A DNA stretch of 50,039 bases, from contig JAFNUD010000025.1 of assembly GCA_017384225.1 (NCBI GenBank), positions 1 to 50,039 on the forward strand. Reading direction: 5' to 3'. Both the position numbers and the translations under genes were made by a program. Numbering within the stretch: position 1 is the first letter of the stretch; the number at the start of each line of letters is the position of its first letter. Source of the DNA: Paludibacteraceae bacterium. Lineage in GTDB: Bacteria > Bacteroidota > Bacteroidia > Bacteroidales > Paludibacteraceae. The notes beneath the pieces are model-generated. The model did not search any database. It was not told where the DNA came from and was given only the letters and a program-made list of their open reading frames with translations. Below, one piece after another: positions 2,549 through 50,039 of this stretch.

Positions 2549-3403
2549 ATGGTAATAGCATCACAAATGGTAGATAATTCAACATTCAAAATTAAAAATT
2601 CTTATCTAGCAGATGCTCGAACGATAGACCGCAAATTATCCATCGTCATCCCCCGACGCGGAATCAACGACGACGGTAAGGGTAAAAAGCATGCCCTTTA
2701 TCGCCTTATCTCTGAAGCCCAAACGGAATACGTATGGATGTTGGACGATGATGTCGTATTCAATAGTTTAGAGGACTCCCTATCGGACTATAGTTTAGCG
2801 TTTGATGATGCCGATTTGGTGATATTACCGCTACGCATGGAGTCGGAAAATGAGCACCCATCCCTACTGGAGCGATTGCAAATAGCAGAATACGCTGCTA
2901 TTCAGCAACTCACTATTGAATCAGCACAAAAAGGGAAAGCCATTATGTGCAGTGGAGCAAATCTTATTGTTCGTCGCGAGCGTTGGTTAGAGTCCTATTC
3001 GGACCTTCATCCCGAAATTCCGAGTGGCGACGACATGTTTCTTTTAGAGTCCTTCAAGCGTCGTGGGCTGAAAATTATTGTTCTTGAAGATCCACAATTT
3101 GAGGCGATTGTACATCCACACACCTCATGGCGAGCTTTTTTGCGACAACGCATGCGATGGGCAGGGAAAGCACCTAAATATACGGACAAAGACATCATCC
3201 ATTACGGCTCTATCACATTGATTGCTAATTTATTACAATTGATTTGCCCAGCAATTATACTTATAAAATTCCCAATAGAATATAGGCTTATTAAGAAACG
3301 TGATAAAACAATATCCATATGGTCTGCATTGCTATTGGAGATACTATACCCCATCTATATCCTACTCTCAATCATTGGAGGATTAGCAAGACGCCAATGG
3401 TAA
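2549..3403 (+). CDS. GT2-family glycosyltransferase lacking the usual N-terminal part
   Basis: The protein has a GKGKKHAL segment, a DDD metal-binding motif (MLDDDVVF), a GDDMFLLE motif, QRMRW (the QxxRW type seen in processive GT2 enzymes) and two hydrophobic segments at the C-terminus, so it is probably a membrane-anchored glycosyltransferase. Normal GT2 domains begin with about 50-60 residues that include the nucleotide-binding VVDD strand. Here those residues are absent; the N-terminus is instead coded by ATTCAAA-like heptamers (2577-2604), a repeat seen elsewhere in the window. The promoter lies just before ATG 2549, so this start (or ATG 2567) is preferred to the upstream TTG at 2537, which overlaps the promoter. 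It could be a decayed gene or a working shortened enzyme. Confidence 0.7.
   Translation: MVIASQMVDNSTFKIKNSYLADARTIDRKLSIVIPRRGINDDGKGKKHALYRLISEAQTEYVWMLDDDVVFNSLEDSLSDYSLAFDDADLVILPLRMESENEHPSLLERLQIAEYAAIQQLTIESAQKGKAIMCSGANLIVRRERWLESYSDLHPEIPSGDDMFLLESFKRRGLKIIVLEDPQFEAIVHPHTSWRAFLRQRMRWAGKAPKYTDKDIIHYGSITLIANLLQLICPAIILIKFPIEYRLIKKRDKTISIWSALLLEILYPIYILLSIIGGLARRQW
2577..2604. repeat. ATTCAAA-type heptamer tract inside a CDS
   Basis: Four consecutive 7-nt words read ATTCAAC, ATTCAAA, ATTAAAA and ATTCTTA. They encode part of the unusual N-terminus of the glycosyltransferase. The same heptamer forms an array at 50013-50039. Confidence 0.55.
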
Positions 3404-3436
3404 ATCGTACTTTTTTCAACTTAAAAGAACTATTTA

Positions 3437-3468
3437 TTTGCTTTATTCAAATAAAAGCAGTAACTTTG
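3437..3468 (+). promoter_or_regulatory. Promoter for the YidE/AspT-type transporter gene
   Basis: TTTG at 3437-3440, a 20-nt spacer, and TAACTTTG at 3461-3468, 22 nt before the ATG. Confidence 0.7.
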
Positions 3469-3490
3469 CAGCGTAATTAAAAATACGCGT

Positions 3491-5152
3491 ATGGATTGGT
3501 TTTATAATCTATTCTTTGGTAGTGGAGTACCTCATTCGATTTTTATTTTGACGCTTGCAATAGCATGCGGTATTTATTTGAGTCATCGTCTAAAGTTCAA
3601 AGGCATCACATTGGGTATCACATGGATACTATTTTGTGCCATTGCATTTTCTCATTTTGGCATGCATCTTGACCCAATGGTAGAGACATTTGCCAAAGAT
3701 TTTGGGTTGATTCTTTTTGTATATAGTATAGGTCTGCAAGTAGGTCCTAGTTTCTTTTCTTCTTTTGGAAAAGGTGGAATAAAATTGAATCTATTGGCAG
3801 TTTCAGCCGTGTTGTTGAGTTGCCTTACAGCGTATGTTATTCATCTATTATCGGGAGAAGATATTGCAACCATGACGGGTGTGCTGTTTGGTGCTGTTAC
3901 CAATACGCCAGGATTAGGAGCAGCTCAGCAGGCATTTACAGATATTACAGGGAATACGAATCCCACCATAGCTAGCGGCTATGCTATGGCATATCCTTTG
4001 GGTGTGGTTGGCATCATCACAGTCATTTTAGCCATGCGTTGGATATTCCGTATTAAACTGGAACAAGAGGAGAATCGTATTCAAGCAGAAAGTGAAGTAC
4101 AGAAGGAGATTGAGTATATTGATATCCTATTGGCTAATCCACAAGTGGAAGGCGCACATATCCGCGATTTGAGTCAGTTGTGTCACATGAATCTAATCGT
4201 ATCGCGTTTGGTTCGTCCGAATGGCGAAGATGAGTTGCCAGATGTAGATACGGTATTGCACGTAGGTGATCGTATACGTGTTGTTGTGGACAAAGAGAAT
4301 GAGAAGAGTGTACTTCTACTTGGTATGGAAACCTCTCTCCCTACAGACTACAAGGCGCAAGCGCATTTGGTATCGCGCCATGTGGTGGTAACTAAACCAG
4401 AACTGAATGGCAAACGCATAGGCGATTTGAATGTACGCGCCACCTACCATGTCTCTATCACACGTATTCGCCGTGCAGGTATTGAACTCTTAGCCACCCG
4501 TGATTTGTATTTGCAATTGGGCGACCGCATCACCGTGGTGGGTGAAGAAAGAGCCGTGGATAAAGTAGAGAATTTATTTGGTAATTCTACCAAGCGATTG
4601 GATATACCTAATCTAACGTCTATATTTTTGGGTATTGCCATAGGTGTAGCCTTAGGAATGTTACCCATTATGTTACCTGGTTTGTCACAACCATTCAAGT
4701 TAGGCATAGCAGGAGGTTCGTTGATTGTGGCAATTTTGCTTGGCTGTTTTGGTCCAAAAATGCATATTGTGACCTATACAACCAGTAGTGCCAACCTGAT
4801 GATTCGCGAGATTGGCATTGCCATGTTCTTGGCGGCAGTTGGGTTTGGAGCAGGAAAGACGTTCATTCCTACTTTACTGGATGGAGGATATATTTGGATA
4901 GGTTATGGTGTACTAATCACATTAGTTCCTTTGCTTATAATAGGTATAGTTGGCAGGGGATGGTTAAAGTTGGATTATTTCACGTTAATGGGACTGATAG
5001 CAGGTAGTACCACTGATCCACCTGCCTTAGCATATGCGACTACGCTCTCGTCGTCTAATGATCGTGCAGCAGTAGCCTATTCCACCGTATATCCTCTAAC
5101 GATGTTCTTACGCGTATTGACTGGACAAATGATGATACTTTTCTTTTTGTAA
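3491..5152 (+). CDS. YidE/YbjL/AspT-family transporter with two RCK_C (TrkA-C) domains
   Basis: The 553-residue protein has the architecture of the AspT/YidE antiporter superfamily: about five membrane helices (residues 1-190), two cytosolic TrkA-C-type domains (about 205-285 and 290-375, both with the GDRI/VxVVV pattern), then a second membrane half (about 380-553). The first half contains NTPGLGAAQQA and the second STTDPPALAYA, the duplicated motifs of the family. AspT is an aspartate:alanine exchanger, but most members have no known substrate, so none is assigned. It has its own promoter; the next gene starts 84 bases downstream. Confidence 0.88.
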   Translation: MDWFYNLFFGSGVPHSIFILTLAIACGIYLSHRLKFKGITLGITWILFCAIAFSHFGMHLDPMVETFAKDFGLILFVYSIGLQVGPSFFSSFGKGGIKLNLLAVSAVLLSCLTAYVIHLLSGEDIATMTGVLFGAVTNTPGLGAAQQAFTDITGNTNPTIASGYAMAYPLGVVGIITVILAMRWIFRIKLEQEENRIQAESEVQKEIEYIDILLANPQVEGAHIRDLSQLCHMNLIVSRLVRPNGEDELPDVDTVLHVGDRIRVVVDKENEKSVLLLGMETSLPTDYKAQAHLVSRHVVVTKPELNGKRIGDLNVRATYHVSITRIRRAGIELLATRDLYLQLGDRITVVGEERAVDKVENLFGNSTKRLDIPNLTSIFLGIAIGVALGMLPIMLPGLSQPFKLGIAGGSLIVAILLGCFGPKMHIVTYTTSSANLMIREIGIAMFLAAVGFGAGKTFIPTLLDGGYIWIGYGVLITLVPLLIIGIVGRGWLKLDYFTLMGLIAGSTTDPPALAYATTLSSSNDRAAVAYSTVYPLTMFLRVLTGQMMILFFL

Positions 5153-5236
5153 TAATTAACAATATAAAAGACATATTTTAAGGAGTAAGCCGAAAAGCCA
5201 AGTGAGTAGGCATAATGAATAAAGTTTTAATAAAAC

Positions 5237-7486: not shown

Positions 7487-7495
7487 TCTTTTGTA

Positions 7496-11648: not shown

Positions 11649-11733
11649 GTGCATTAGCACGTTTCATGTAAACGTTAACACCTAAAAACGCGAAGCATGT
11701 AACATAACAACGCGAAGCAAATAACGGAACGAA
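11649..11733. repeat. Repeat-rich spacer between recA and the flavoprotein gene
   Basis: The stretch contains the palindrome GTGC-ATTA-GCAC (11649-11660), two copies of ACGCGAAGCA (11688-11697 and 11710-11719), and a third degenerate copy running into the start codon of the next gene (CGGAACGAAGTGAAGCA). It resembles other border repeats in the window. Confidence 0.55.
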
Positions 11734-13323
11734 GTGAAGCAACAAACACTAATATTATCCCCAGAGAAAGCTCACGACATGGAACAAAAGTTTCGTGTCG
11801 TGAAGCGTTCTGTGGATGCCCGCCAGAAGCAGCTCAAGGTTCACCTTACTGTACTTACCGATGAGCATGGTGCACCGCTTCCCAAGGAAGCACCAATCCC
11901 GCTCTACGAGCAACCCTGTTTTCAAGATGTGCACAACGCCGAGCATAGCGTGGCTATTATTGGTGCAGGTCCTGCGGGCTTGTTCGCTGCCCTGACGCTC
12001 ATCGAACACGGCATCCGTCCTATCATCTACGAGCGCGGCAAAGAGGTCGCTGAGCGCAAGAAGGATATCGCCATACTCAACCGCAACCAAGGACTCAACG
12101 CGGATTCTAACTACTGCTTTGGCGAAGGTGGAGCTGGCACATTCTCCGATGGAAAACTCTTCTCGCGCAGCAAGAAACGCGGCAATATGCAGCGCGTGAT
12201 GGAGCTCTTCCACCATTTCGGTGGCGACGACCGCTTGCTCTACGAAGCCCATGCCCATATCGGTAGCGACAAACTGCCCACCATCATCCGCCGCATGCGC
12301 GAGTGCATCCTCGAACACGGTGGCGAGATACATTTCTCTACTTGCGTGGATGAATCTCTCTTCCGCAATCTCATCGCCAATAGCCAATATCCAATAGGCG
12401 GAACGCCGTCCAATAGCCCTTTAGGGCGTCCACTCCTTGGTGTCATCCTCGCCATCGGTCACTCCGCCCACGATACCTACCACATGCTTCATGCCAACGG
12501 TGTTGCCTTGGCTACCAAAGGTTTCGCGATGGGCGTGCGCGCGGAGCACCCACAGGCACTAATCAACAAACTCATGTACCACGACCCATCGCCCGAACTC
12601 ATTCGTTTGGTGGGCAATGCTTCGTATTCGTTGGTGACGCAGGTGCAAGGGCGCGGTGTGTATTCCTTCTGCATGTGCCCAGGTGGACATATCGTTCCAG
12701 CGGGCAGTGCATTGAATAGTTGCGTGGTCAATGGCATGTCTGCCAGCCATCGTAATTCTCCATTTGCCAATTCGGGTATGGTAGTCGAGATCCGTCCCGA
12801 GGATTTGAACAACATTGGAACTTTGAAACAAGCGCCAACGGCGCATGAAACTTTTAATTCTAATCCTCTCGCAGGATTAGAATTCCAGCAGCACCTCGAA
12901 CGCCTCGCGTTCGAACATGGCGGAGAACCATCATTGGCTCCCGCTCAACGATTGAAAGACTTTGTTGAAGGAAGACAGAGCCAAACGCTACCTTCGTGCA
13001 GTTATTTGCCAGGTATGGTGTCTAGCCGTCTTGACCAGTGGTTACCCGAACATATCGGCAAACGCTTGCAACAGGGCTTCCGCGATTTCGACCGCAAGTA
13101 CCGTGGTTTCTTGACCAACGAGGCGGTTATCCTTGGCGTAGAGAGCCGTAGCAGTAGTGCAGTGCGTTTGCCCCGTGATCCTGAAACACTGCAATCTATC
13201 TCCACGCCCCACCTCTATCCTTGTGGCGAAGGTGCAGGCTATGCAGGTGGCATCACTTCCTCTGCCTTGGACGGCATCAATGTCGCCCTCAAAATCGCCG
13301 AGCAACTCCCCTCTACACACTGA
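11734..13323 (+). CDS. FAD-dependent dehydrogenase-like flavoprotein (COG2509)
   Basis: An N-terminal segment ending in VVKRSVDARQKQLKVHL precedes the FAD-binding GAGPAGLFAAL (about residues 76-86). NYCFGEGGAGTFSDGKL, AIGHSAHDTYHML and the C-terminal PCGEGAGYAGGITSSALDG are hallmark segments of the COG2509 'NAD(FAD)-utilizing dehydrogenase' family. The physiological substrate is unknown. The GTG start at 11734 keeps the family's LSPE opening but lies in a repeat tract; ATG 11779 is the alternative. Two internal stretches (about 12375-12432 and 12820-12884) contain palindromes and words like those in intergenic regions and replace or lengthen loops of the family. Confidence 0.85.
   Translation: MKQQTLILSPEKAHDMEQKFRVVKRSVDARQKQLKVHLTVLTDEHGAPLPKEAPIPLYEQPCFQDVHNAEHSVAIIGAGPAGLFAALTLIEHGIRPIIYERGKEVAERKKDIAILNRNQGLNADSNYCFGEGGAGTFSDGKLFSRSKKRGNMQRVMELFHHFGGDDRLLYEAHAHIGSDKLPTIIRRMRECILEHGGEIHFSTCVDESLFRNLIANSQYPIGGTPSNSPLGRPLLGVILAIGHSAHDTYHMLHANGVALATKGFAMGVRAEHPQALINKLMYHDPSPELIRLVGNASYSLVTQVQGRGVYSFCMCPGGHIVPAGSALNSCVVNGMSASHRNSPFANSGMVVEIRPEDLNNIGTLKQAPTAHETFNSNPLAGLEFQQHLERLAFEHGGEPSLAPAQRLKDFVEGRQSQTLPSCSYLPGMVSSRLDQWLPEHIGKRLQQGFRDFDRKYRGFLTNEAVILGVESRSSSAVRLPRDPETLQSISTPHLYPCGEGAGYAGGITSSALDGINVALKIAEQLPSTH
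12375..12432. repeat. In-frame repeat tract in the COG2509 gene (first)
   Basis: Several CCAATAG/CCAATAT words are followed by two palindromes, GGCG-GAA-CGCC (12397-12407) and GCCCTTTAGGGC (12416-12427). The word CAATAGCCAAT recurs inside wbqC at 44829-44858. The reading frame is kept. Confidence 0.55.
12832..12884. repeat. In-frame palindromes in the COG2509 gene (second)
   Basis: GCGCC-AAC-GGCGC lies at 12832-12844. A perfect hairpin follows, with a 12-nt stem AATTCTAATCCT at 12856-12867, loop CTCGC and its complement at 12873-12884. Both lie inside the coding frame. The right part encodes NPLAGLEFQ, which looks native to the family, so only the left part may be acquired. Confidence 0.55.
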
Positions 13324-13451: not shown

Positions 13452-13457
13452 CAGCGC

Positions 13458-13737
13458 GAAGTTGAGCGATTGACTTTGCAGACATATTATAAAAAGCGTT
13501 TATTAGCGCTTGTTTTGGTGTAACGAAATCTGGTAAATTTCACAATCGCCCAAAACAAGAAGGCAGTAAACGCCCTTTGGGATATGGATTATCCCGCCGC
13601 AGAGCGTCCATACGTGGACTGCTCTGTTTGGTGGCTGTTCATATTCGGCGTGGGCGTTGCTTGCTTATTCTTGCGAAAGGGTTTACCAGAGCCTCGTTAC
13701 AGAGAATAAGCAAAGGTAAGGTTCCACGCTTTTTTGT
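13458..13737 (+). ncRNA. Structured noncoding RNA, possibly Bacteroidales 6S RNA
   Basis: No convincing ORF fits this 280-nt stretch, which has its own promoter and a long set of strong helices: 13496-13502 with 13567-13573 (7 bp), 13509-13518 with 13550-13559 (10 bp), 13579-13584 with 13590-13595, 13600-13610 with 13615-13626 (11 bp, TACG loop, one bulged T), 13661-13671 with 13703-13713 (11 bp), and a closing GCGTGG (13648-13653) with CCACGC (13724-13729) followed by six T residues. It is not RNase P RNA or tmRNA by sequence motifs. The combination of promoter, layered stems and terminator fits the 6S-like RNA of Bacteroidales (Rfam Bacteroidales-1), but that identity is from memory of its general look and is unverified. 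Confidence 0.6.
13724..13737 (+). terminator. 3' end of the structured RNA
   Basis: CCACGC pairs with GCGTGG at 13648-13653 and runs into TTTTTT. A second small hairpin (GGGG...CCCC, 13750-13772) lies between this point and the next start codon. Confidence 0.5.
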
Positions 13738-13791
13738 GTTTATACCAACGGGGCGTTTGGAGCCAACTCCCCACAAAAAACATGCACGTTT

Positions 13792-14538
13792 ATGAAAAAG
13801 TTATTCATTTCAGTAGCATTCCTTTTTGCTACACTATTATCTCACGCTCAAATCACATTGGAACACACACTAACCGATTTGCAGGACGGCATAAGTTTAT
13901 ATAATTTTGGAAGTAATGTTGAGGTATTCCCAATAGTTGAACCATTTTATCCTATTGTTATAGGAGAGGACTATCTAATTTTAACAGAGTTAGCAAATGA
14001 TGGTAATGCAGAATGTGATCCGACTGTTTTTACCAATGTGTATAATTTAAACGATTATTTGTTAGAGTTTTCTGTAAATGTAGAACAGACATTTGGACGA
14101 AACACATATGATGGGCCATATCTCATTGCACAAAATGTTTTCACTACAGATTCTAAGTTTATTTATATTTGTAGAACAGTAACCGAAGTTGGTTACTATG
14201 GAGACCCAAGAAAAGGAGAAATTAAGGTCATTTCTCAAGATGGCAATATTCTAGCATCTATGCCTTACACTTGTAACATTAAAGAACATGGTAGTAACCA
14301 ATCATTTTGCTATTTAGTAAAAGTTGGTGGACGATATAAATTAGTCGTAGAGAATAATCAAGATGATGATGGCAGATATGATTATGATATTTATGCTCTC
14401 CCAGGTAATGGCGAAGCTACAGCGATTAACGAAGTTCATGCTCCTCGTCGCAATGCCCGTAAGTATATCCACGATGCTCAAGTGTTAATAGAGAACGAAA
14501 AGAACATTTATACCATCCAAGGTCAAGAAATAAAATAA
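13792..14538 (+). CDS. Small secreted protein with Bacteroidales C-terminal tail
   Basis: A signal peptide (MKKLFISVAFLFATLLSHAQ) is followed by about 190 residues of beta-type sequence and a C-terminal module (ARKYIHDAQVLIENEKNIYTIQGQEIK) like those ending many Bacteroidales secreted proteins, including the first protein of this window. No enzymatic motif is seen and I cannot assign a function. The sequence is AT-richer than its neighbours. No separate promoter was found; transcription may read through from the upstream RNA gene. Confidence 0.7.
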   Translation: MKKLFISVAFLFATLLSHAQITLEHTLTDLQDGISLYNFGSNVEVFPIVEPFYPIVIGEDYLILTELANDGNAECDPTVFTNVYNLNDYLLEFSVNVEQTFGRNTYDGPYLIAQNVFTTDSKFIYICRTVTEVGYYGDPRKGEIKVISQDGNILASMPYTCNIKEHGSNQSFCYLVKVGGRYKLVVENNQDDDGRYDYDIYALPGNGEATAINEVHAPRRNARKYIHDAQVLIENEKNIYTIQGQEIK

Positions 14539-15780: not shown

Positions 15781-16600
15781 CGATACCGAATGTTTGTTTG
15801 ATCTTCGACTTATTCAGCACGCTATAGTGTGGGCGTGGCGTTTGGTATTGATACTCGCTGCTGAGGATAGGACGCAGATGGCAAGATGCGATCTTGTCCG
15901 CTGCCTCCCTGTCTAACAAAGATTGTGCGCGGGCGAAGATTTCGTGCGTGAAATCGTACCAAGAACAAACACCCTCGTTCGTGAAGTGATATACACCTGC
16001 ATGCCACTCGGGCGATTCAATGGCTGCAAAAATTGCCACAGCCAAGTCGGCAGCGTAGGTGGGCGAACCTATCTGATCAAAAACTACACCCAGTGCCTCG
16101 CGCTCCTTCCCCAAACACAACATTGTTTTCACAAAATTATTACCAAAAGTGGAATACAACCACGCGGTGCGAATGATGACTGCTTCGGGGCAAATCGCTT
16201 GTAGCAACTCCTCACCTGCCAGTTTCGTGCGACCATAGGCTGTGCGGGGGGCTACACTATCCGTTTCTGTATAAGGAATAAAACCTTCGCCCGAGAATAC
16301 ATAATCGGTACTAATATGAATAACCTTTGCTCCTGAACGGCCCAAATTCTCTGCAGCCGTTGCGTTAATGGCATATGCTAACTCTTCATCACTCTCTGCC
16401 TTATCCACATTGGTATATGCAGCGCAATTGACAATAATATCAATGGCGTTTTCGGTCACAAAATGTTGGACAGCTTCGCGTGAGGTGATATCCAATTCAG
16501 CAACATCGGTAAAGAAATATGTATGTTGCGCATGTTGCGCCGAGAGAATGCGCATCTCGTTGCCTAACTGCCCATTGGCGCCTGTGATGAGAATATTCAT
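15722..16600 (-). CDS. rfbD: dTDP-4-dehydrorhamnose reductase
   Basis: This 292-residue extended short-chain dehydrogenase has the N-terminal NAD(P)-binding TGANGQLG (residues 6-13), STDYVFSG, and the catalytic Tyr122-x3-Lys126 pair (AYGRTK). It catalyses the last step of dTDP-L-rhamnose synthesis, supplying rhamnose for surface polysaccharide. It follows rfbC on the same strand after a 47-nt repeat-bearing spacer, so the two probably form one transcript from the promoter before rfbC. rfbA and rfbB are not in the window. Its 3' end overlaps convergent tcdA by 59 nt. Confidence 0.95.
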   Translation of the reverse strand: MNILITGANGQLGNEMRILSAQHAQHTYFFTDVAELDITSREAVQHFVTENAIDIIVNCAAYTNVDKAESDEELAYAINATAAENLGRSGAKVIHISTDYVFSGEGFIPYTETDSVAPRTAYGRTKLAGEELLQAICPEAVIIRTAWLYSTFGNNFVKTMLCLGKEREALGVVFDQIGSPTYAADLAVAIFAAIESPEWHAGVYHFTNEGVCSWYDFTHEIFARAQSLLDREAADKIASCHLRPILSSEYQYQTPRPHYSVLNKSKIKQTFGIAIPHWTEALQVCLEKLLHD

Positions 16601-16619
16601 GCTGTTTAGTGTTTAGAGG

Positions 16620-16650
16620 ACGGCGCAAAGCGCCTACTGTTTAGCGTTTA
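16620..16650. repeat. Border repeat, copy A (rfbC/rfbD spacer)
   Basis: A palindrome GGCGC-AAA-GCGCC is followed by CTACTGTTTAGCGTTTA. It is similar over its full length to 39125-39155, allowing one indel. TTTAGTGTTTAG words flank it on the other side. The stop codon of rfbC lies inside it. Confidence 0.75.
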
Positions 16651-17196
16651 AAAAGGGTTATCCAATTCTGAAAGTAATGGATGATTTTTGTCTTTCTCGC
16701 TGAGAATCATCTGTTCAGCTGGGATTTGCCAATCAATATTCAGTGCAGGGTCGGTAAGCAGAATACCACCATCTGCTTCTGGGTGATATAGATTGTCACA
16801 CTTGTAGGTAAACACCGCGCGCTCGCTCAATACCGAAAAACCATGTGCAAAACCGCGTGGGATATAGAACTGGCGATGACTCTCTGCATCCAATTCTACA
16901 GCAAAATGCTGACCATAAGTAGGACTATCTTTGCGCAAGTCCACAGCCACGTCCAACACACGACCTTCAGCACAACTGACTAATTTTGCTTGTGTATAAG
17001 GCGGACGCTGAAAGTGCAAACCACGTACTACACCATATGTAGAACAAGATTTATTATCTTGCACAAAAGTAGCATCTACGCCTACTTCTCGATAACGTTC
17101 TTCATTGTATGTTTCTACAAAATAGCCACGTGCATCACGAAAAACCTTAGGCTCAATCACCAAAAGACCTTCTATCGGAGTTTTAAATACTTGCAT
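16648..17196 (-). CDS. rfbC: dTDP-4-dehydrorhamnose 3,5-epimerase
   Basis: The 182-residue protein matches the RmlC cupin family: FRDARGYFVETYN at the N-terminus, GVVRGLHFQ with the catalytic His61, Lys71, YIPRGFAHGF and the catalytic Tyr131. It epimerises dTDP-4-keto-6-deoxyglucose at C3 and C5, the step before rfbD, which lies just downstream. The family length is about 180 residues, so it is complete. A promoter of the usual Bacteroidota form precedes it. Confidence 0.96.
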   Translation of the reverse strand: MQVFKTPIEGLLVIEPKVFRDARGYFVETYNEERYREVGVDATFVQDNKSCSTYGVVRGLHFQRPPYTQAKLVSCAEGRVLDVAVDLRKDSPTYGQHFAVELDAESHRQFYIPRGFAHGFSVLSERAVFTYKCDNLYHPEADGGILLTDPALNIDWQIPAEQMILSEKDKNHPLLSELDNPF

Positions 17197-17832: not shown

Positions 17833-18552
17833 ATGAAAACAATCCGATTCTTTCTTTTCTTTATTAGTGTATGTATTTGGTTTCCTTGCCATATGCAAGC
17901 GGGCGAACCATGGTACACAGGTTACAAAAAAGTACTCGTCATTGGTGCTCATCCCGATGATCCTGAAACTATGTGCGGTGGCACAATGATCAAGTTACGC
18001 CAGATGGGTATTGAAGTGGTATCGGTATATTTCACTTCAGGCGAAGCGGGCATTCCTGGTAAAAGTCACGAAGAATCAAGTGCAATCCGCACAGTTGAAG
18101 CTCAAAAAGCATGCGAAATATTGGGAGTACGCCCTGTATTCATGACACAGATTGACGGCAATACCGAGGTCAACAAAGCACGCTATGCCGAGATGAAAGC
18201 CCTCATCGAAACTGAGCAACCAGACATGGTCATCACCCATTGGCCTATAGATTCACACCGAGATCACCGTGTATGCTCTATCCTTGTATATGATGCTTGG
18301 CGCCAAACAGGATATGATTTCGACCTCTACTACGGCGAAGTAATGACAGGGCTTCAAACACAAACGTTTGCCCCCAACCATTGGGTGGATATTACCGAGC
18401 AACACAATCAAAAAGTACAAGCTTACTACTGCCACGAGAGCCAAGATATGCCAATAGTACAAGAATGGCACGATGCTATGGAAATTCTCCGAGGCATGGA
18501 GTGCCACGCCAAATACGGGGAAGCATTCGTCAAACAAACAAGGAAGGAATAG
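17833..18552 (+). CDS. PIG-L (LmbE-like) family deacetylase, exported
   Basis: After a signal peptide (about residues 1-23), the protein shows the metal-binding AHPDDPE (residues 39-45), with Asp42 as likely base, and the third ligand in SHRDH (residues 141-145). These are the zinc site of N-acetylglucosaminyl-type deacetylases. The substrate is probably an acetylated amino sugar in the periplasm, but this is inference. The stop codon abuts a heptamer array (18552-18600), and the next gene is a GntP permease 52 nt on. Confidence 0.88.
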   Translation: MKTIRFFLFFISVCIWFPCHMQAGEPWYTGYKKVLVIGAHPDDPETMCGGTMIKLRQMGIEVVSVYFTSGEAGIPGKSHEESSAIRTVEAQKACEILGVRPVFMTQIDGNTEVNKARYAEMKALIETEQPDMVITHWPIDSHRDHRVCSILVYDAWRQTGYDFDLYYGEVMTGLQTQTFAPNHWVDITEQHNQKVQAYYCHESQDMPIVQEWHDAMEILRGMECHAKYGEAFVKQTRKE

Positions 18553-18600
18553 GTTAAAGGTTAAAGGCTAAAGGTTAGAGGCTAAAGGTTAAAGGCTAGG
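18552..18600. repeat. Tandem heptamer array GGYTARA, seven units
   Basis: Seven consecutive 7-nt units: GGTTAAA, GGTTAAA, GGCTAAA, GGTTAGA, GGCTAAA, GGTTAAA, GGCTAGG. It begins at the last base of the PIG-L stop codon and ends 4 nt before the next start. A GGTTAAAGGCT fragment recurs on the minus strand near 35962-35972. Confidence 0.85.
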
Positions 18601-21053: not shown

Positions 21054-21067
21054 ACTTTCATCTAAAA

Positions 21068-39121: not shown

Positions 39122-39124
39122 AGA

Positions 39125-40372: not shown

Positions 40373-41359
40373 TTACTTTTTCTTCTCACTTATTCCTGCT
40401 GGTTTGCCTATAGCCTCACGCATGGAAGTGTCAGCTTGAATATTTTGCATGCGATAATAATCCATTATTCCCAAATTGCCATTGCGGAACGCTTCCGCCA
40501 TAGCCTGTGGAACAAGTGCCTCTGCCTCAATCACTTTAGCTTTCGCCTCTTGCGCTTTAGCTTTCATCTCTTGCTCTGTCGCAATAGCCATCGCACGACG
40601 CTCCTCAGCCTTAGCTTGAGCGATATTCTTATCCGCTTGAGCCTGATCCATCTGCAATTGCGCACCGATATTCTTACCCACATCTATATCCGCTATATCA
40701 ATACTCAAAATCTCAAATGCAGTTCCAGCGTCCAAACCCTTGCTAAGTACCAATTTAGAAATACTATCAGGATTTTCAAGCACCATCTTATGGCTATCCG
40801 ACGAACCAATCGAGCTTACAATACCCTCGCCTACACGAGCCAAAATAGTATCCTCACCTGCACCACCTACCAATTGCTTGATATTAGCACGTACAGTCAC
40901 ACGAGCCTTAGCAATGAGCTGAATACCATCTTTTGCTACAGCAGTCACAGGAGGAGTATCTATCACGCGAGGATTAACAGACATTTGCACAGCCTCAAAC
41001 ACATCACGACCTGCCAAATCAATCGCAGTAGCCATCTGAAATGATAATTGCATATTAGCTTTGCTGGCACTCACAAGAGCATGTACTACACGCTCAATAT
41101 GTCCACCTGCCAAATAGTGGGCTTCCAAGCCATCACGTTTCACATCTGTAAGCCCTGCTTTGTGAGCCTCAATAAGGCAGTTGACTATACGAGTTGGGGG
41201 TACTTTACGAATACGCATGAGGAATAGTTGCACCAAAGACACATGCACACCACTCACCACGGCGTTTATCCACAACATAAAAGGTACATAGTAGAAGAAT
41301 ACTACCACAACAATGGCGATAATCGCCAAAATGACCGTTTCAAAAATTCCAAAGCTCAT
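40373..41359 (-). CDS. floA: Flotillin-like protein FloA
   Basis: The 328-residue protein begins with a membrane-inserted segment (about residues 5-25, plus a second hydrophobic region to about 50), then a SPFH/PHB domain with [22 protein letters not shown] and a long coiled-coil ([41 protein letters not shown]). It scaffolds ordered membrane patches. It follows an NfeD-like gene on the same strand, the standard pairing. Confidence 0.95.
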
Positions 41360-42468: not shown

Positions 42469-42516
42469 CAGGCTTTTTTATGTATATGCGCAACTAATCA
42501 TATTCATTGATAAAAA

Positions 42517-43254
42517 ATGAAAATAGCCCTCATTGGATACGGAAAAATGGGACATATCATCGAGTCTATTGCTCTCAGCAGAGGACACCAAGTGGTATGT
42601 ATCATCGACAAAGATAATCGCAATGACTTTGAATCCGAAGCTTTTGCTTCTGCAGATGTGGCAATAGAATTCTCCACCCCACAAACCGCTGAAGCCAATA
42701 TTTGTCGTGCATGGAAAGCCAACATACCTGTGGTATGTGGTACGACAGGATGGGATGTAGAAGAATTTAGGAGTAAGTATCTAGAGCTAAAAACAACTCT
42801 AAATTGCACCAACGGAACTACTGAACAACCGTTCTGCGGTTTAATGTGGTCGTCCAACTATAGTATTGGGGTAAATATCCTATTTGCGCTCAATCAGCAG
42901 CTGGCAAAATTTATGGAGGCATATCCCAATTATACGCCCCATCTGACCGAAGTGCACCATATTCACAAGTTGGATGCGCCCAGCGGAACTGCCAAGACAC
43001 TACAAGCAGCTATTGGCGATCAGCGTTTGGCTGTTAGCAACATTGAGTCAATTCGCGAAGGAGAAGTACCTGGTATTCACACCGTAATATGGGATAGTTC
43101 GGTGGATACCATCAGCATCAGTCACAGTGCTAAATCGCGCGAGGGATTTGCTCTCGGTGCTGTCATAGCAGCCGAATGGATGAAAGGCAAAACAGGTTGG
43201 CACGAATTCTGCGAAGTGTTAGATACAACGCTACACAATACTAAACAACACTAA
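42517..43254 (+). CDS. dapB: 4-hydroxy-tetrahydrodipicolinate reductase with an inserted loop
   Basis: The protein has the N-terminal NAD(P)-binding ALIGYGKMG, DVAIEFSTP, GTTGW, SSNYSIGVN, and the substrate motif EVHHIHKLDAPSGTAKT. It reduces the cyclic precursor of diaminopimelate and lysine. Between GTTGWDVEEF and WSSNYS there are about 18 residues more than usual (about 89-108), encoded by CTAAAAACAACTCTAAA-type and AACGG...CCGTT sequence. The C-terminus (NTKQH) and stop codon are formed by an ACTAAACAAC repeat. Catalytic residues are intact. Confidence 0.94.
   Translation: MKIALIGYGKMGHIIESIALSRGHQVVCIIDKDNRNDFESEAFASADVAIEFSTPQTAEANICRAWKANIPVVCGTTGWDVEEFRSKYLELKTTLNCTNGTTEQPFCGLMWSSNYSIGVNILFALNQQLAKFMEAYPNYTPHLTEVHHIHKLDAPSGTAKTLQAAIGDQRLAVSNIESIREGEVPGIHTVIWDSSVDTISISHSAKSREGFALGAVIAAEWMKGKTGWHEFCEVLDTTLHNTKQH
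42784..42836. repeat. Repeat-like in-frame tract in dapB
   Basis: GAGCTAAAAACAACTCTAAA is followed by an inverted pair AACGG...CCGTT around a CTGAACAAC word. Similar words (ACTGAAC, ACTAAACAAC) occur in spacers at 31801-31857 and 43240-43259. Confidence 0.45.
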
Positions 43255-43259
43255 ACAAC
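43240..43259. repeat. ACTAAACAAC tandem pair at the dapB stop
   Basis: Two exact 10-nt units head to tail that contain the stop codon of dapB. Confidence 0.75.
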
Positions 43260-43267
43260 ATAACGAT

Positions 43268-44675: not shown

Positions 44676-44676
44676 A

Positions 44677-45246
44677 ATGGTATTGCCTACAACATATATG
44701 GGTTCGATGGAATGGTATCGCCGTTTTTTGGCAAACCCATCCGAGGTACAGATTGAGGTCATGGAGAGTTTTCCTAAGCAGACCTATCGTAATAGGTGCA
44801 CCATCTCTGTGCCACACGACTCTTTGCTCAATAGCCAATCAACAACAGCCAATAGCCTCACACTATCAGTGCCTGTGAAGCGAGCTGATAGCAAGCAACT
44901 CACACGCGATGTGGAGATTAGCTATCAGCAACGTTGGCAACACCAGCACTGGATTGCGCTCATGAGTGCCTACAAGCGCACGCCCTATTTTGACTACTAC
45001 GCAGATTTCTTGCGTCCCTTCTACGAGAAAGAAACCAGGTTCTTAATCGATTTCAACGAGGGACTGCACGAAACTATTATTCGCTTGATGGCGAATAATG
45101 TGGCAATTGGCTATGGGCAATTGGCTGTAGCCAAGAATAGGACTTCGGATTGGCAAGGGTTAGATTTAGAGCCATGCTTTGGTAATGGACAAAGTATATT
45201 AGACATGTTATTTGAGTACGGTCCAGAAACCGTAATTAAGATATGA
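44677..45246 (+). CDS. WbqC-family protein
   Basis: The 189-residue protein has the WbqC-type opening (LPTTYMGSMEWYRRFL), VEISYQQRWQHQHWIALMSAYKRTPYFDYYADFLRPFYE and a helical C-terminal half. The family is found in O-antigen loci and is linked to amino-sugar modification, but its chemistry is unclear; placement after lepB is conserved in the phylum. Residues about 51-61 (DSLLNSQSTTANS region) are encoded by CAATAGCCAAT words like those in the COG2509 gene. Its stop overlaps the ilvE start (ATGA, 4 nt). Confidence 0.85.
   Translation: MVLPTTYMGSMEWYRRFLANPSEVQIEVMESFPKQTYRNRCTISVPHDSLLNSQSTTANSLTLSVPVKRADSKQLTRDVEISYQQRWQHQHWIALMSAYKRTPYFDYYADFLRPFYEKETRFLIDFNEGLHETIIRLMANNVAIGYGQLAVAKNRTSDWQGLDLEPCFGNGQSILDMLFEYGPETVIKI
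44829..44858. repeat. CAATAGCC repeat inside wbqC-like gene
   Basis: CAATAGCCAATCAACAACAG is followed by CCAATAGCC. The word CAATAGCCAAT also occurs at 12375-12432. Confidence 0.55.
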
Positions 45247-46334
45247 TAGATTGGAGTAAGTTGACATTTCATTACACAGAGACGGATTTTGTGGTTCGCT
45301 CTGCTTGTTGCAATGGTGTATGGGAAAAACCATACGCTACACGCGACAAGTACATCAAGATACATGCTGCTGCAACTGGCCTACAGTATGGACAAGAGTG
45401 CTTTGAGGGACTCAAAGCTTTTCGCGGTATAGACGGCAATGTGCGCATTTTCCGAATGGAAGAGAATGCTCGTCGTATGCAACGCTCTGCCGAAGGACTA
45501 CTCATGACACCTGTACCCGAGAATATTTTCTGCGAAGCTATTTTATTGGCATTAGAAAAAAACATTGATTTCTTGCCTCCTTACGAGACGGGAGCCACCC
45601 TATACTTCCGTCCCGTACTCATAGCCACAACACCAGAGATCAGTGTCGGACCTGGCAAAGATTGCGAATTTATTGTCATACCCACCCCTATCGGTCCATA
45701 TTTCCCAAATGGTTTCAAAGGCACCCCATTCATTGTCAATCGCCACATAGACCGATCCGCACCGCAAGGTACAGGGCAGTGGAAAGTAGGAGGCAACTAT
45801 GCAGCATCATTCCGAGCCAGCGAAGTGGCACATGCTATGGGCTACGAATGTATGTTCACCGATGCCAAAACACATAAGTATATAGATGAGTGCACGGCTT
45901 CCAATTTCATTGGCATCCGTCAGTATAGCAAACTTCAGGGCTCTGCCCGAACTACAGCAAAGCGATCTACAGTGAGCAACGCGAACGATCTACAGCGAAG
46001 CGATCTAATCTACGAATACCTCACTCCTCGCTCTAGTGCTATCTTGCCCAGCATCACCAACGATTCGCTGATGACACTGGCACGAGAAATGGGACTCAAA
46101 GTCACCCGCCGTCGTATCCGTATCGAAGAGCTTGAAGAGATGAGTGAAGCTGCTGCATGCGGAACAGCATGTGTTATTTCACCTATCACCAAAGTGTTTG
46201 ACCCTGACAAAAATTGCACATACCATTTTGGTAAACCAGGACCGATACTCACACGTCTTTACAACGCACTACAAGATATACAGTATGGTCGTACCGAAGA
46301 CAAGCACGGATGGTGTACCGTGGTTTTGAGTTGA
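45243..46334 (+). CDS. ilvE: Branched-chain amino-acid aminotransferase with a repeat-derived loop
   Basis: The protein is of fold-type IV PLP enzymes: GQECFEGLKAFRG, VGGNYAASFRASEVAHAMGYE with the PLP-binding Lys (QWKVGGNY), and CGTACVISPITKV near the C-terminus. It interconverts branched amino acids and keto acids. Relatives run almost directly from FIGI(R/K) to the Y(L/V)TP(R/K)S motif; here about 30 residues (roughly 230-257) intervene, encoded by repeats of GCGATCTACAG type (45949-46012) that match words in the spacer at 46681-46739. The frame and active site are intact. Confidence 0.95.
   Translation: MIDWSKLTFHYTETDFVVRSACCNGVWEKPYATRDKYIKIHAAATGLQYGQECFEGLKAFRGIDGNVRIFRMEENARRMQRSAEGLLMTPVPENIFCEAILLALEKNIDFLPPYETGATLYFRPVLIATTPEISVGPGKDCEFIVIPTPIGPYFPNGFKGTPFIVNRHIDRSAPQGTGQWKVGGNYAASFRASEVAHAMGYECMFTDAKTHKYIDECTASNFIGIRQYSKLQGSARTTAKRSTVSNANDLQRSDLIYEYLTPRSSAILPSITNDSLMTLAREMGLKVTRRRIRIEELEEMSEAAACGTACVISPITKVFDPDKNCTYHFGKPGPILTRLYNALQDIQYGRTEDKHGWCTVVLS
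45949..46012. repeat. GCGATCTACAG repeats inside ilvE
   Basis: Units such as CTACAGCAAAGCGATCTACA and CTACAGCGAAGCGATCTAA are arranged with a GAGCAACGCGAACGATC segment between. They closely match CTAACAGCGAAGCGGTCTAA in the spacer 46681-46739. Confidence 0.8.
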
Positions 46335-46364
46335 TTTATATTTGATTATCATAACACACTATAT

Positions 46365-46679
46365 ATGAACGAATTTTTAGAATTAGAAGAACAGGTACTC
46401 CGCATGATCAAAACGGTGTATGATCCTGAGATACCTGTCAATATATACGAATTAGGTCTCATCTATCGCATTGATCTTTCCGAAGAGAAAGTCTGTACCA
46501 TTGACATGACCCTTACCGCGCCTAACTGCCCTGCAGCCGATTTTCTTGTCGAGGATGTAAAGCAGAAAGTGGGGTCAGTGGATGGTATCGAAACGGTGAA
46601 TGTAAATATAGTCTTTGAACCCGAATGGAACAAGGACATGATGTCTGAAGAAGCCAAACTCGAGCTTGGATTTCTCTAA
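46365..46679 (+). CDS. MIP18/DUF59 iron-sulfur assembly protein (SufT-like)
   Basis: The 104-residue protein has VYDPEIPVNIYELGLIYRIDL, MTLTAPNCPAADFLVEDV with the conserved Cys, and a C-terminal VFEPEWNKDMMSEEAKLELG. These mark the DUF59 family that assists iron-sulfur cluster delivery in the SUF pathway. It is 30 nt after ilvE. No sufBCD genes are in the window. Confidence 0.92.
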   Translation: MNEFLELEEQVLRMIKTVYDPEIPVNIYELGLIYRIDLSEEKVCTIDMTLTAPNCPAADFLVEDVKQKVGSVDGIETVNVNIVFEPEWNKDMMSEEAKLELGFL

Positions 46680-46680
46680 T

Positions 46681-46739
46681 CTAACAGCGAAGCGGTCTAA
46701 CAATGAATGGTCTAATTTCTAACAGCGAAGCGGTCTAAC
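46681..46739. repeat. Exact direct repeat in the sufT-like/lpxH spacer
   Basis: Two identical 21-nt copies (46681-46701 and 46719-46739; first 20 bases CTAACAGCGAAGCGGTCTAA) flank GGTCTAATTT. They fill the spacer from the stop codon to 4 nt before the next ATG. Confidence 0.85.
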
Positions 46740-46742
46740 GAC

Positions 46743-47528
46743 ATGATTTACTTCTTATCCGACGCTCATCTTGGCTCCCGTGCTATTGACACCCCTCAAG
46801 TCCATCAGCAGAGACTGATTGACATGCTTTGTAGCATGGCAAAGGATGCTACTGCCATCTATCTACTTGGAGATATTTTCGACTTTTGGTGCGAGTATTT
46901 CTGGTACGATAGCAGCAAAGAGCAATATAGTCCTTTCCTGCAAACACTCAAGAAAATTACCAGCAAAGGCATAGCAATTCATTTCTTCATTGGCAATCAC
47001 GATATTTGGACTTTTGGTTGGTTGGAGAAGATTACAGGCGTAGTGGTACATCGCAAACCAGAAAGCATTGAGATTCATGGCAAGCGTATTTTCCTTGCAC
47101 ACGGCGACGGACTAATGCCAAGCGACTACGTGCGACAACTACCTAAGAAGATACAGAAGAAAATCCAACAATTTATTTTCTTGCGTAAGGTATTTCACAA
47201 CCCCATATTGCAATTTCTTTTCCGCCTATTACCTCCTGCATGGGCAAATAATTTCGGCTATGAATGGGCAAAAAATAGCCGCTTGAAAGAGTTATCGCAC
47301 CCATGTTCGTACAAAGGCGAAGACAAAGAGGAATTGGTGCTCTTTGCCAAAGAACAAGAGCAATTAGGTAATCACCATGATTTTTATATTTTTGGTCATC
47401 GCCATATCGAATTAGACTTGATGCTCAGCCGCGAGAGTCGAATCATGATTCTCGGTGATTGTTGGCAACAGTTCACTTATGCCCAAATGGATAATTATGA
47501 ATTAAGAATTAAGAATTTTGAATTATAA
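46743..47528 (+). CDS. lpxH: UDP-2,3-diacylglucosamine diphosphatase (LpxH-like)
   Basis: The metallophosphoesterase motifs appear in order: SDAHLGS, GDIFDFWCEYFW, GNHDIW, AHGDGL and GHRHIELD. The fold and spacing fit LpxH, which makes lipid X in lipid A synthesis; membrane-associated helices (IQQFIFLRKVFHNPILQFLF) fit too. The last residues (NYELRIKNFEL) are encoded by GAATTAA-type heptamers of the 47499-47618 repeat, so the C-terminus seems extended by repeat DNA. Confidence 0.88.
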   Translation: MIYFLSDAHLGSRAIDTPQVHQQRLIDMLCSMAKDATAIYLLGDIFDFWCEYFWYDSSKEQYSPFLQTLKKITSKGIAIHFFIGNHDIWTFGWLEKITGVVVHRKPESIEIHGKRIFLAHGDGLMPSDYVRQLPKKIQKKIQQFIFLRKVFHNPILQFLFRLLPPAWANNFGYEWAKNSRLKELSHPCSYKGEDKEELVLFAKEQEQLGNHHDFYIFGHRHIELDLMLSRESRIMILGDCWQQFTYAQMDNYELRIKNFEL

Positions 47529-47618
47529 AAATCGTTCGAGCCCTTTGGGCAAGATAAGAATTTTGAATTATAAAAATCGTTCGAGCCCTTTGGGCAAGAT
47601 AAGAATTTTGAATTATAA
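47499..47618. repeat. 45-nt tandem repeat covering the lpxH stop codon
   Basis: Four heptamers (GAATTAA, GAATTAA, GAATTTT, GAATTAT, 47499-47526) lead into an exact 45-nt unit repeated at 47511-47555 and 47556-47600, with a third partial copy to 47618. Each full unit contains the palindrome GCCCTTTGGGC. GAATTTTGAAT is the reverse complement of the ATTCAAA array word. Confidence 0.9.
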
Positions 47619-47624
47619 TCAATT

Positions 47625-48964: not shown

Positions 48965-49035
48965 AATACAGTTAATAATTAATAGTTTGTTATAGTTTGC
49001 ATTTTGATACAAAAAACGGGTCTTGCGACCCGAAG

Positions 49036-49117
49036 TGCGGCATAAAGGACTCGAACCTTCACTCCTCTCGAAACTAGATCCTAAGTCTAGCGCGTCTACC
49101 AATTCCGCCAATGCCGC
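49036..49117 (-). tRNA. tRNA-Leu (anticodon UAG)
   Basis: The minus strand folds as a class II tRNA. The acceptor arms are GCGGCAT/ATGCCGC with discriminator A. The D arm reads GGCGGAATTGGTAGACGC, the anticodon stem CTAGA/TCTAG holds loop CTTAGGA (anticodon TAG), a variable arm follows, and the T arm reads AGGTTCGAGTCCTT. The 3' CCA is not encoded. It reads CUN leucine codons. Confidence 0.96.
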
Positions 49118-49129
49118 AGAAATCGGGTG

Positions 49130-49161
49130 CAAAATTAGTAAAAATATTGCATATACGCAAA
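49130..49161 (-). promoter_or_regulatory. tRNA-Leu promoter
   Basis: On the minus strand, TTTGCGTATATGCAA, a 20-nt spacer after TTTG, and TAATTTTG (49130-49137), 13 nt before the mature tRNA end. Confidence 0.75.
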
Positions 49162-49232
49162 TTTTAGTAGAAAAAAGTTTATTTTATCCTTAAAACAGCA
49201 TCTATACGGCGTATTTATTTAAGATTCAGCGG

Positions 49233-49315
49233 ACTCGCGTAGCGAGTGCTAGCGGTGGTAATAAAATCAGAGTCGGAGAAACAAGATTTATTTAGATTTC
49301 TTGCGCGTAGCGCAA
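49233..49315. repeat. Two palindromes with a shared core before the M16 gene
   Basis: ACTCGC-GTA-GCGAGT (49233-49247) and TTGCGC-GTA-GCGCAA (49301-49315) share the core CGCGTAGCG. They lie in the spacer between tRNA-Leu and the M16 peptidase gene. Confidence 0.75.
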
Positions 49316-49333
49316 AGGAGCTTTAATTATAAT

Positions 49334-50039
49334 ATGAGCGATACTTTTTATCATAATCTACTCAATGGGGTGCAGATTGTGCACCGCAAGACCACTTCGC
49401 CTGTCGTTTATGTAGGTATCATGGTCGGTGCGGGCACGCGCCACGAGTTGCCCAACGAGAACGGCATGGCGCACTATATTGAGCACTGTGTTTTCAAGGG
49501 TACTGAGCACTATACTGCTCGCCAGATCATTAATCATATTGAGGGCATTGGTGGTGAAATCAATGCCTATACCACCAAAGAGGAAACTACATTCTACGCA
49601 GCTACATTGCGCCAGCATTTCCGTACTACGCTACATTTGCTTGCTGACATGGTGTTCCGCCCTACTTTCAACAAGAAAGAGACGAATAAAGAGGTCACGG
49701 TCATTCTTGATGAAATTGAGAGTTACAACGACTCGCCCAGCGAACTCATCTATGATGACTTCGAGAACATGATTTTCGAGGGCAATTCATTGGCGATGCC
49801 TATCCTTGGCACCAAGAAGACGCTACGCCGTATCTCCAAGTCGCCTAACTACCCACTCCAATGGATGGCACAGCACTATCGCCCCGAGCGCATGGTACTC
49901 TTCGTGCTGGGCAACGTCAGCACCCAGCAAGTCCTCTCCGCCGCCGAACGAGAATTTTCAGGTTCCCTAATTTCTCCAACTGATTCGCCTATAATAACTG
50001 ACACCACGATTAATTCAAAATTCAAAATTCAAAATTCAA
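49334..50039 (+). CDS. M16-family metallopeptidase, 3' end outside window
   Basis: About 235 residues are visible from ATG 49334. The sequence has NGVQIVHRKTTSPVVYVGIMVGAGTRHELPNENGMAHYIEHCVFKGTEHY, with the inverse zinc motif HYIEH (HxxEH) and the downstream Glu expected in the ETTFYAATLRQHF/EVTVILDEIESY region. This is the pitrilysin/processing-peptidase family. The visible end reads SPIITDTTINSKFKIQNS, encoded by ATTCAAA heptamers inside the gene, where relatives have a short inter-domain link. The frame stays open to the window edge. Confidence 0.9.
   Translation, partial: MSDTFYHNLLNGVQIVHRKTTSPVVYVGIMVGAGTRHELPNENGMAHYIEHCVFKGTEHYTARQIINHIEGIGGEINAYTTKEETTFYAATLRQHFRTTLHLLADMVFRPTFNKKETNKEVTVILDEIESYNDSPSELIYDDFENMIFEGNSLAMPILGTKKTLRRISKSPNYPLQWMAQHYRPERMVLFVLGNVSTQQVLSAAEREFSGSLISPTDSPIITDTTINSKFKIQNS
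50013..50039. repeat. ATTCAAA heptamer array inside the M16 gene
   Basis: ATTCAAA is repeated three times, then ATTCAA at the window edge; the array may continue. The same word type occurs at 2577-2604 and, inverted, at 47499-47618. Confidence 0.85.

Follow-up and report, generated by a model that had tools for sequence, protein, structure and literature searches.

Heptanucleotide repeats and palindromes inserted in frame are the described systems closest to the sequences reported here. The short tandemly repeated repetitive (STRR) sequences of cyanobacteria are heptanucleotide repeats, and the Rickettsia palindromic elements (RPEs) are longer palindromes that fall into defined families. According to the passages of MacGregor 2015 (PMC4679880) drawn on here, TAACTGA heptamer repeats occur in Beggiatoaceae, in cyanobacteria and in five Bacteroidetes including Paludibacter, and some of them overlap the ends of open reading frames (ORFs); a polymerase footprint has been suggested as the reason for the 7-nt preference (Mrazek 2007, as cited in the same passages). 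In Rickettsia, palindromes are inserted in frame into genes (PMC3733652, in the part used here). We describe micro-repeats, made up of tandem words, mini-hairpins and short palindromes, in an entire contig of 50,039 bases from a Paludibacteraceae bacterium (G000:C114, analysed whole and called the window) and in related genomes. These repeats exceed chance, lie in frame within conserved genes as well as at gene borders, and differ between close species through changes of unit number and replacement of whole blocks. The G000 assembly is a metagenome-assembled genome (MAG) of 2.17 Mb in 140 contigs, 88% complete, and those relatives that carry names are MAGs from rumen and gut with the label Paludibacteraceae or Bacteroidales.

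Micro-repeats beyond chance and inside conserved genes

Tandem arrays in the window were counted with Tandem Repeats Finder (TRF; merged arrays, period 6-16) and compared with 20 dinucleotide shuffles. At score cut-offs of >=30, >=40 and >=50 there are 29, 13 and 7 arrays, against 7.0 +- 2.7 (maximum 12), 0.8 (maximum 2) and 0.1 (maximum 2) in the shuffles, and period-7 arrays alone number 7 against 0.95 (maximum 3) at >=30. Given 29 against 7.0, about a quarter of the weakest window arrays is expected by chance. Exact lag-7 runs number nine in 249 kb of G000 (21 stretches, including the window), 37 in 346 kb of the genus (20 stretches) and 44 in 368 kb of named family loci, with 0.0 expected in each case; other families of the order have 8 against 0.3 in 350 kb (20 stretches), five of the eight in one genome. 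The commonest period in the genus is 7 nt, with lags 7, 14 and 21 strongest, lags 8, 11, 16 and 22 next (10-12 each) and lags 5, 6 and 13 at 0-2. Mini-hairpins (perfect stem of at least 5 with at least 4 GC pairs, loop 3-5) are in excess in the spacers of the window (5 against 0.8 expected, one of the five adjoining tRNA-Leu), and inside its genes no enrichment is seen (17 against 14.0). Stop codons coincide with 5 of the 32 window TRF arrays, at four stops (two overlapping arrays share one), where random placement gives 1.0 (P ~0.005). A sequence-only reading of this DNA, made earlier, had held that such words occupy gene borders and often cover stop codons; the count against shuffles (29 vs 7.0, 13 vs 0.8), the spacer hairpins and the arrays at stops bear this out and show the words to be non-random. 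The repeats are real and beyond chance.

The d(GCGAAGC) hairpin is a stable triloop, and a triloop theme was considered and rejected: GCGNAGC occurs only 17 times in the window against 9.7 +- 2.9, GAA and GTA loops are not dominant, the excess in the genus is small (117 vs 94), and other families have one too (62 vs 35). The triloop hairpins of G000 (46 vs 24 expected; 31 vs 11 for those closed by C-G) are kept as a minor point.

Comparison with homologues suggests that many coding arrays are additions to the protein. For 78 in-ORF arrays (101, less 17 with too few homologues and 6 in repeated contexts), which are distinct contexts and not independent events, one array for example being common to four species, the mean homologue gap fraction is 0.36 over the array and 0.036 over the rest of the same proteins; most homologues have a gap at 19 of the 78, and at least a quarter of them at 48. 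Window IlvE, of 363 residues, includes 29 extra residues encoded in frame at 45927-46013 (+ strand; TRF 45948-46007) by TCTACAG-type words and GCGAAGC mini-hairpins. Matches were obtained in 23 of 24 other-family genomes, all in two pieces (about 227, then about 258) with at most a few residues between, and the solved IlvE 3uyy is without the segment in the alignment. RsgA carries an 18-residue stretch of AGTTCAGG words at 33985-34038 (- strand; TRF 34008-34041), where the nearest relative (91% identical) has 7 residues, the next (85%) none and others 0-14. The COG2509-like FAD protein has an in-frame insert at 12352-12441 (+ strand, about residues 207-236) with GCCAATA heptamers and the hairpins GGCG-GAA-CGCC and GCCC-TTTA-GGGC; of the three relatives compared, G014 has it, and in G002 and G010 it is missing, the protein being shorter by 22-23 residues. 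A second variable site of this gene, at 12805-12867 (+ strand), holds a GCGCCAACGGCGC hairpin in the window. The M16 peptidase loop consists of (AATTCAA)4 in frame at 50012-50039 (+ strand), the contig ending within the array, and both relatives compared have different repeats there. The WbqC-like gene contains a CAATAGC array at 44829-44857 (+ strand); its protein has 189 residues in the window and 174-190 in the six best-matching loci.

These alignments support insertion in frame at ilvE, at one rsgA site, in COG2509 and in the M16 loop, which upholds for those genes the proposal of the sequence-only reading that the words sit in frame in housekeeping genes. Several of its other examples are weaker: the second rsgA array (GAGGTGAT, 34215-34253, - strand) encodes 8 residues where relatives have 0-11, two homologues of the metallophosphatase that it called lpxH have tails of similar length, and in DapB a decamer covers the stop codon while a 12-residue loop is not clearly repetitive. 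For GT2 and FloA no homologue was present among the loci sampled, and on visual inspection the FtsK 15-mers (22023-22061) and FloA 21-mers (40534-40574) resemble ordinary coding repeats. The same reading had named a refuting outcome, that homologues without repeats would have the same loops; such homologues mostly lack them. As a separate observation, the profile match of RecJ in G000 (C122) and in G014 (C7) is split in two by extra residues, which may be a further in-frame insert.

In 1.35 Mb, of which 86% is coding, placement was surveyed for 163 lag-7 sites of distinct context (gene calls, here and in the frame counts below, follow custom ORF rules; L046 and L048, from the same genomes as L080 and L079, were excluded from this survey and from the phrase searches). 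Called genes hold 76 of the sites, codirectional spacers 63, divergent spacers 8 and convergent spacers 1, and 15 are unplaced. Array density is several-fold higher in spacers than in genes, yet almost half of the sites lie within genes. The purine-rich strand is the sense strand at 61 of 76 coding sites and at 50 of 63 codirectional spacer sites (purine background near 0.52 and 0.55).

Turnover and copying of repeat blocks

The same site carries different words in different species. The S26 peptidase loop, which has no array in the window, is filled elsewhere by (AAAGTCG)n, (AGTTGAG)n, (AAATTAA)n, (GGACAAT)n, (TCAGCYR)n, short palindromes or just a few residues, and the IlvE loop holds TCAGCTG, AAAGTCG, TGTACAA, GARTCGG or GGTTAAA words or CCCTCCCTAAAGGGAAGGGAG-type palindromes, or is empty. 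Differing words in one loop are also seen in WbqC, DapB, RsgA and M16, and at one stop/start junction L042, L052, L043, L054 and L047 each have their own array or variant, L050 being empty. Identical words are shared by 33 of 671 within-genome pairs of sites and by 191 of 12,996 between-genome pairs (maximum 3.9% in 300 permutations). In six of the eight genomes with at least 9 sites the number of words almost equals that of sites; L041 and L054 have one favoured word each. The single dispersed family assumed by the sequence-only reading did not hold, words varying by site and by species. Genome-specific word dialects, considered as a separate idea, are moderate only, sharing within genomes being about 3-fold above that between genomes. 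A side observation concerns CCCCGACCCTCCCCTCAAGGGAGGGAG-type palindromes, which occur at many loci (e.g. L052:10209, L144:1872, L156:4684) and in some genes are in frame as LTPTLSSREG-like peptides; these resemble peptides in many unrelated bacterial annotations.

Turnover was followed between the close species G085 and G086, which align over 111.6 kb at 94.2% identity after exclusion of high-scoring segment pairs (HSPs) below 600 nt, below 85% identity or overlapping a better HSP, and of events within 12 columns of an HSP end. The alignment yields 51 replacement blocks and 24 indels; a further 32 small events were left uncounted. Indel length differences, some of which are not clean unit changes, are multiples of 7 in 9 of 24 and of 8 in 6 of 24; unit-type length differences of 7, 8, 14, 16, 21 and 28 nt occur, and four indels are of 15 nt, three of them coding. 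In the replacements, a heptamer array in one species faces a palindrome in the other, or one word faces another word, with matching flanks. Frame is kept in 31 of 32 coding replacements (11 of them without length change, which may be ordinary divergent coding stretches), in 6 of 11 in spacers and in 4 of 8 mixed cases. Of the 38 replacements with length change, to which the test of repeat content was confined, 26 have a tandem repeat or a GC hairpin in one allele or both, where random segments give 12.4 (maximum 20 in 200 draws). Around 30 replacement blocks in nine aligned segments, flank identity is 0.93-0.95 at 13-800 nt and 0.956 beyond; because it is lowered only slightly, most swaps seem to end at the block.

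Blocks also recur at distant places. An irregular phrase of 44-46 nt, ATTGACGATTGGACGATTGACGAGGTACGATTGATTGACGATTG, is found at three distant sites in G085/G086: one site is filled in both species, another in G085 only, G086 having a different array there, and shorter exact pieces lie at at least three further places of G085. G007 has two recurring phrases, one of 57 nt (95%) and one of 34 nt (97%, within two called genes), and G002 has one of 44 nt (98%); the copies in these two genomes are 60-140 kb apart. In G014 a 34-nt phrase from the first COG2509 insert stands in frame at the second site of the gene, where the window differs. Slippage does not account for irregular phrases, 34-57 nt long, that stand at places far apart, so copying takes place as well. 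Of 100 replaced alleles, 32 are matched over at least 16 nt at another place in the sixth of their own genome that was sampled (shuffled alleles, 0 of 100), and the repeat vocabulary is common to G085 and G086.

One insert appears to have crossed between species. In ilvE of the window and L038, four adjacent 60-nt bins (about 240 nt) around the insert are 88-100% identical and the other bins of the gene 56-82%; apart from this tract, the two species share about 72% identity in the region. The left flank is partly conserved in further relatives too (82-87%). This tract of near identity points to recombination between species as a further route by which inserts spread.

Possible mechanisms

The turnover itself is seen in the comparisons, and the copying agent is what we infer from them. 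With confidence evenly divided between yes and no, we propose that these micro-repeats are turned over by slippage in steps of 7 or 8 nt together with short-patch copying, without a dedicated transposase, at tolerant loops and gene junctions. Under this proposal, arrays would gain or lose units of 7 or 8 nt, and blocks of about 10-140 nt would be replaced by unrelated blocks, often repeats, with flanks intact and in frame within genes, both of which the species comparison displays. Blocks would further be copied from place to place as irregular 34-57-nt phrases, as observed for several phrases, and an insert may spread between species in a short recombination tract, as indicated once (ilvE, the window and G014/L038). 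The copying would take place during replication, by template switching or short-patch illegitimate recombination needing no dedicated transposase, probably aided by the microhomology and hairpins of the repeats themselves. Selection would retain in-frame, stop-free copies in tolerant loops, and may also yield the purine-rich bias of the sense strand.

Several observations weigh against this proposal or against insertion as its source. Twelve of the 38 length-changing replacements contain neither a tandem repeat nor a hairpin, and 30 of the 78 in-ORF arrays are gapped in fewer than a quarter of homologues (at some of these low-gap arrays the homologues have something else at the site). Insertion ends are poorly defined because there is a single clean empty site (L047:6681 vs L050). 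No recent donor within the same genome stands out, since replaced alleles are matched about as often in the sister-genome sample (35 of 100) as in that of their own genome (32 of 100). The period in G000 is looser than in the genus (lag 14, 12; lag 7, 9; lags 15, 18 and 21, 5 each; lag 8, 0). The many words per genome and their roughly 3-fold sharing would fit slippage alone for the perfect arrays. Finally, 58 of 61 genomes have RecJ, a suppressor of short-patch illegitimate recombination.

Candidate agents were sought by profile. In the array-bearing genomes G000 (88% complete), G017 (98%) and G006 (84%) there is no match to PF01797 (Y1) or to PF00078 (reverse transcriptase) at the thresholds applied, the search being limited to these two among transposases and recombinases; G017 and G006 have 14 lag-7 sites each in 100-120 kb. 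Across 61 genus genomes, PF01797 matches in 22 (18 over the cut-off), with none at E <= 0.001 in 39, and PF00078 in 15; in the array-rich G007 a single weak Y1 match stays below the cut-off, and a reverse transcriptase is present in G002. Since both are absent from array-bearing genomes, neither seems required, and Y1 transposases of the RAYT (REP-associated tyrosine transposase) kind and reverse transcriptases are rejected as necessary drivers. Loss of single-stranded DNA exonucleases is rejected too, RecJ being present as stated and the large subunit of exonuclease VII (XseA) in 35 of 37 genus genomes. In those 35 genomes the XseA match is always in two pieces, with about 35-70 profile positions missing between them. 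SbcD is over the cut-off in 15 of 61 genomes and, within the genus, in 6 of 37, so that 31 of 37 are below it; lag-7 density is 0.036/kb with SbcD and 0.094/kb without (p = 0.13, not significant, one-sided, 6 vs 15 genomes, ancestry uncorrected), and a link between SbcD and array density, picked after seeing the data, is a lead only.

Local slippage, with a polymerase step of about 7 nt building arrays independently at each site and shared words arising by convergence among AT-rich, stop-free and purine-rich survivors, is unlikely to be the sole cause. It would explain why lengths differ by multiples of 7 and 8 nt and why the period stays at 7 nt while the words vary, and heptanucleotides are the most abundant class in most genomes (Mrazek 2007, per the passages of PMC4679880 used here). 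This explanation is already strained by the irregular 34-57-nt phrases shared by distant sites; nor does it fit the exchange, at a single spot, of hairpin blocks for heptamer blocks or the occurrence of the palindrome CTCCCTAACCCTCCCCACAAGGGAGGGAA at two sites of G086.

A mobile micro-element, moved by an unrecognised trans-acting enzyme (a transposase, recombinase or nuclease encoded elsewhere), is improbable to the same degree. The evidence in its favour is the existence of discrete dispersed phrases with common ends, such as an element of about 64 nt in G085 with AATTGACGATT near both ends, a GAGGTACG core and a variable stretch of about 5 nt, found at at least six loci (L139, L141, L143, L183, L187 and L189, some copies partial), and a 3' end, CACCCGTGTTTG, shared among phrases; the in-frame palindromes of Rickettsia are a precedent (PMC3733652, in the part used here). 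As to the terminal inverted repeats of a miniature inverted-repeat transposable element (MITE), the dispersed phrases have, by eye, no long inverted ends. Against such an element, no consensus common to the blocks is visible, the sole empty site shows by inspection a duplication of at most 2 nt, and Y1 and reverse transcriptase matches are absent from G000 and not universal in the genus (22 and 15 of 61). The sequence-only reading had offered slippage or a trans-acting enzyme: slippage is borne out by the length differences of 7, 8, 14, 16, 21 and 28 nt and leaves the irregular phrases at distant sites unexplained, and of the enzymes neither Y1 transposase nor reverse transcriptase is required. 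Its interpretation as a whole is partly supported.

Exchange of alleles between species by homologous recombination, with the repeats as passengers at multi-allelic sites, would suit the ilvE bins near the insert (88-100% against 56-82% elsewhere), part of the left flank there being well conserved in other relatives also, and is nevertheless very doubtful as a general account, flank identity barely falling near the 30 blocks, and the source of the differing blocks being left unexplained.

Returning to slippage combined with short-patch copying, a bolder extension, which we put forward tentatively and with clearly less confidence, is a genus-wide exchange in which replication, in 7-nt steps, would write, copy and overwrite blocks across the chromosome without a transposase, the loops of essential proteins being rewritten faster than species form. 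If true, this would amount to innovation of protein sequence by copied repeat blocks with no transposase. The close genomes already provide a large set of natural recent events (unit changes, swaps and non-local copies), many of them in essential genes; this set allows step size and donor choice to be worked out and bears on the preference for 7-nt units; we know of no test of the polymerase-footprint idea. Loops of housekeeping enzymes can be rewritten repeatedly, in frame, by repeat DNA, and differences in loops among MAG proteins of this group can be repeat noise and not function.

Other features of the window and comparison with known systems

Pfam matches in the window include recA, ftsK, ftsZ, ftsA, a Mur ligase, rsgA, rrf, a flotillin-like protein, dapB, an S26 signal peptidase, the WbqC-like gene, a class-IV aminotransferase (ilvE), the metallophosphatase (lpxH) and mazG. 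Arrays at stop codons, all on the + strand, are GGYTARA heptamers over the stop of a PIG-L gene (18551-18598), CTTTAAA heptamers over that of glycerate kinase (21034-21058), ACTAAACAAC decamers over that of DapB (43225-43260) and AATTAAG heptamers at that of the LpxH-like gene, followed by a 45-bp unit repeated 2.4 times with a GCCC-TTT-GGGC hairpin (47493-47618). An AATTCAA-like array lies at the start of the GT2 reading frame, whose start codon is uncertain (2576-2601, + strand). The spacer between recA and COG2509 has a 22-nt tandem unit with CGCGAAGCA mini-hairpins (11683-11725, + strand), and in another spacer TCTAACA words alternate with GCGAAGCG mini-hairpins (46675-46750, + strand). 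With no strand assigned, GTTTAG words flank a GGCGC-AAA-GCGCC hairpin in a spacer (16600-16660), and two triloop hairpins, ACTCGC-GTA-GCGAGT and TTGCGC-GTA-GCGCAA, lie at 49233-49315. Many short spacer-spacer matches in the window and in L058-L077 are accounted for by recurring TTTGCATATAT...TACCTTTGCA sequences, promoter-like and of the Bacteroidetes type.

Apart from the repeats, about 300 nt at 13455-13760, after a promoter-like TACCTTTGC motif, are strongly structured and rod-like (fold z-score -7.4; 0 of 100 shuffles as stable). A second copy lies in G000 at L075:7031-7328 (83% identical over 313 nt). No Rfam match was obtained up to E = 1, and the stretch is possibly an undescribed RNA. 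The window copy is followed at 13792-14538 by a protein of 248 residues without Pfam or PHROGs match; the second copy precedes a 546-residue ORF instead.

Turning to described systems, the GC clusters of yeast mitochondria and the palindromic repeats of organelles (Volvox) are likewise tiny gene-free palindromes dispersing by an unknown route; unlike the present repeats, they are organellar and mainly non-coding. Repetitive extragenic palindromes and bacterial interspersed mosaic elements (REP/BIME), with their Y1 transposase RAYT, are similar in their spacer mini-hairpins and mixed arrays, but here G000 lacks a Y1 match, and 39 of the 61 genus genomes searched have none at E <= 0.001. A retroelement would need a reverse transcriptase in the genome, and PF00078 has no match in G000. 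Short-patch double illegitimate recombination is a rare laboratory event reportedly observed in Acinetobacter by Harms et al. in 2016; as there, short segments are replaced by heterologous ones from within the genome, and replacement of a block by a copy from elsewhere was found here. The process would differ here in acting time and again at the same loops, with tandem growth and on an evolutionary scale.

The sequence-only reading knew of no equivalent in Bacteroidales, a statement that calls for qualification in view of the TAACTGA heptamers in five Bacteroidetes (PMC4679880, in the passages used) and of AATTNAR triplets. These were present in 82 of the 296 genomes sampled from the phylum, G000 included, several of which also match the reversed control, and suggest that the raw material is widespread. 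No description of in-frame, word-swapping heptamer arrays in Bacteroidales was found in the open-licence literature.

Like the RPEs, as far as the passages drawn on describe them, the present repeats are small, lie in frame in genes of functional proteins and occur in spacers too, and insertion in frame into conserved protein genes was found. They differ in being tandem words, mini-hairpins and short palindromes that have no single consensus and replace one another at one site; a long palindrome consensus per family, as in RPEs, was not found, the blocks at one site being unrelated words or short hairpins. With heptanucleotide repeats they share the 7-nt unit, short arrays at gene borders, some of them on stop codons or protein ends, and the lack of an evident mobility mechanism, and 7-nt tandem units are far above chance (37 against 0.0 in the genus, 9 against 0.0 in G000). 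Heptanucleotide repeats have one favoured word and are mostly intergenic, whereas here there are very many words, one or a few fixed words per genome not being the rule, and 76 of 163 lag-7 sites lie in called genes, in frame and swapped between sister species. The micro-blocks are a variant of the known heptamer repeats and of the in-frame palindromes of Rickettsia.

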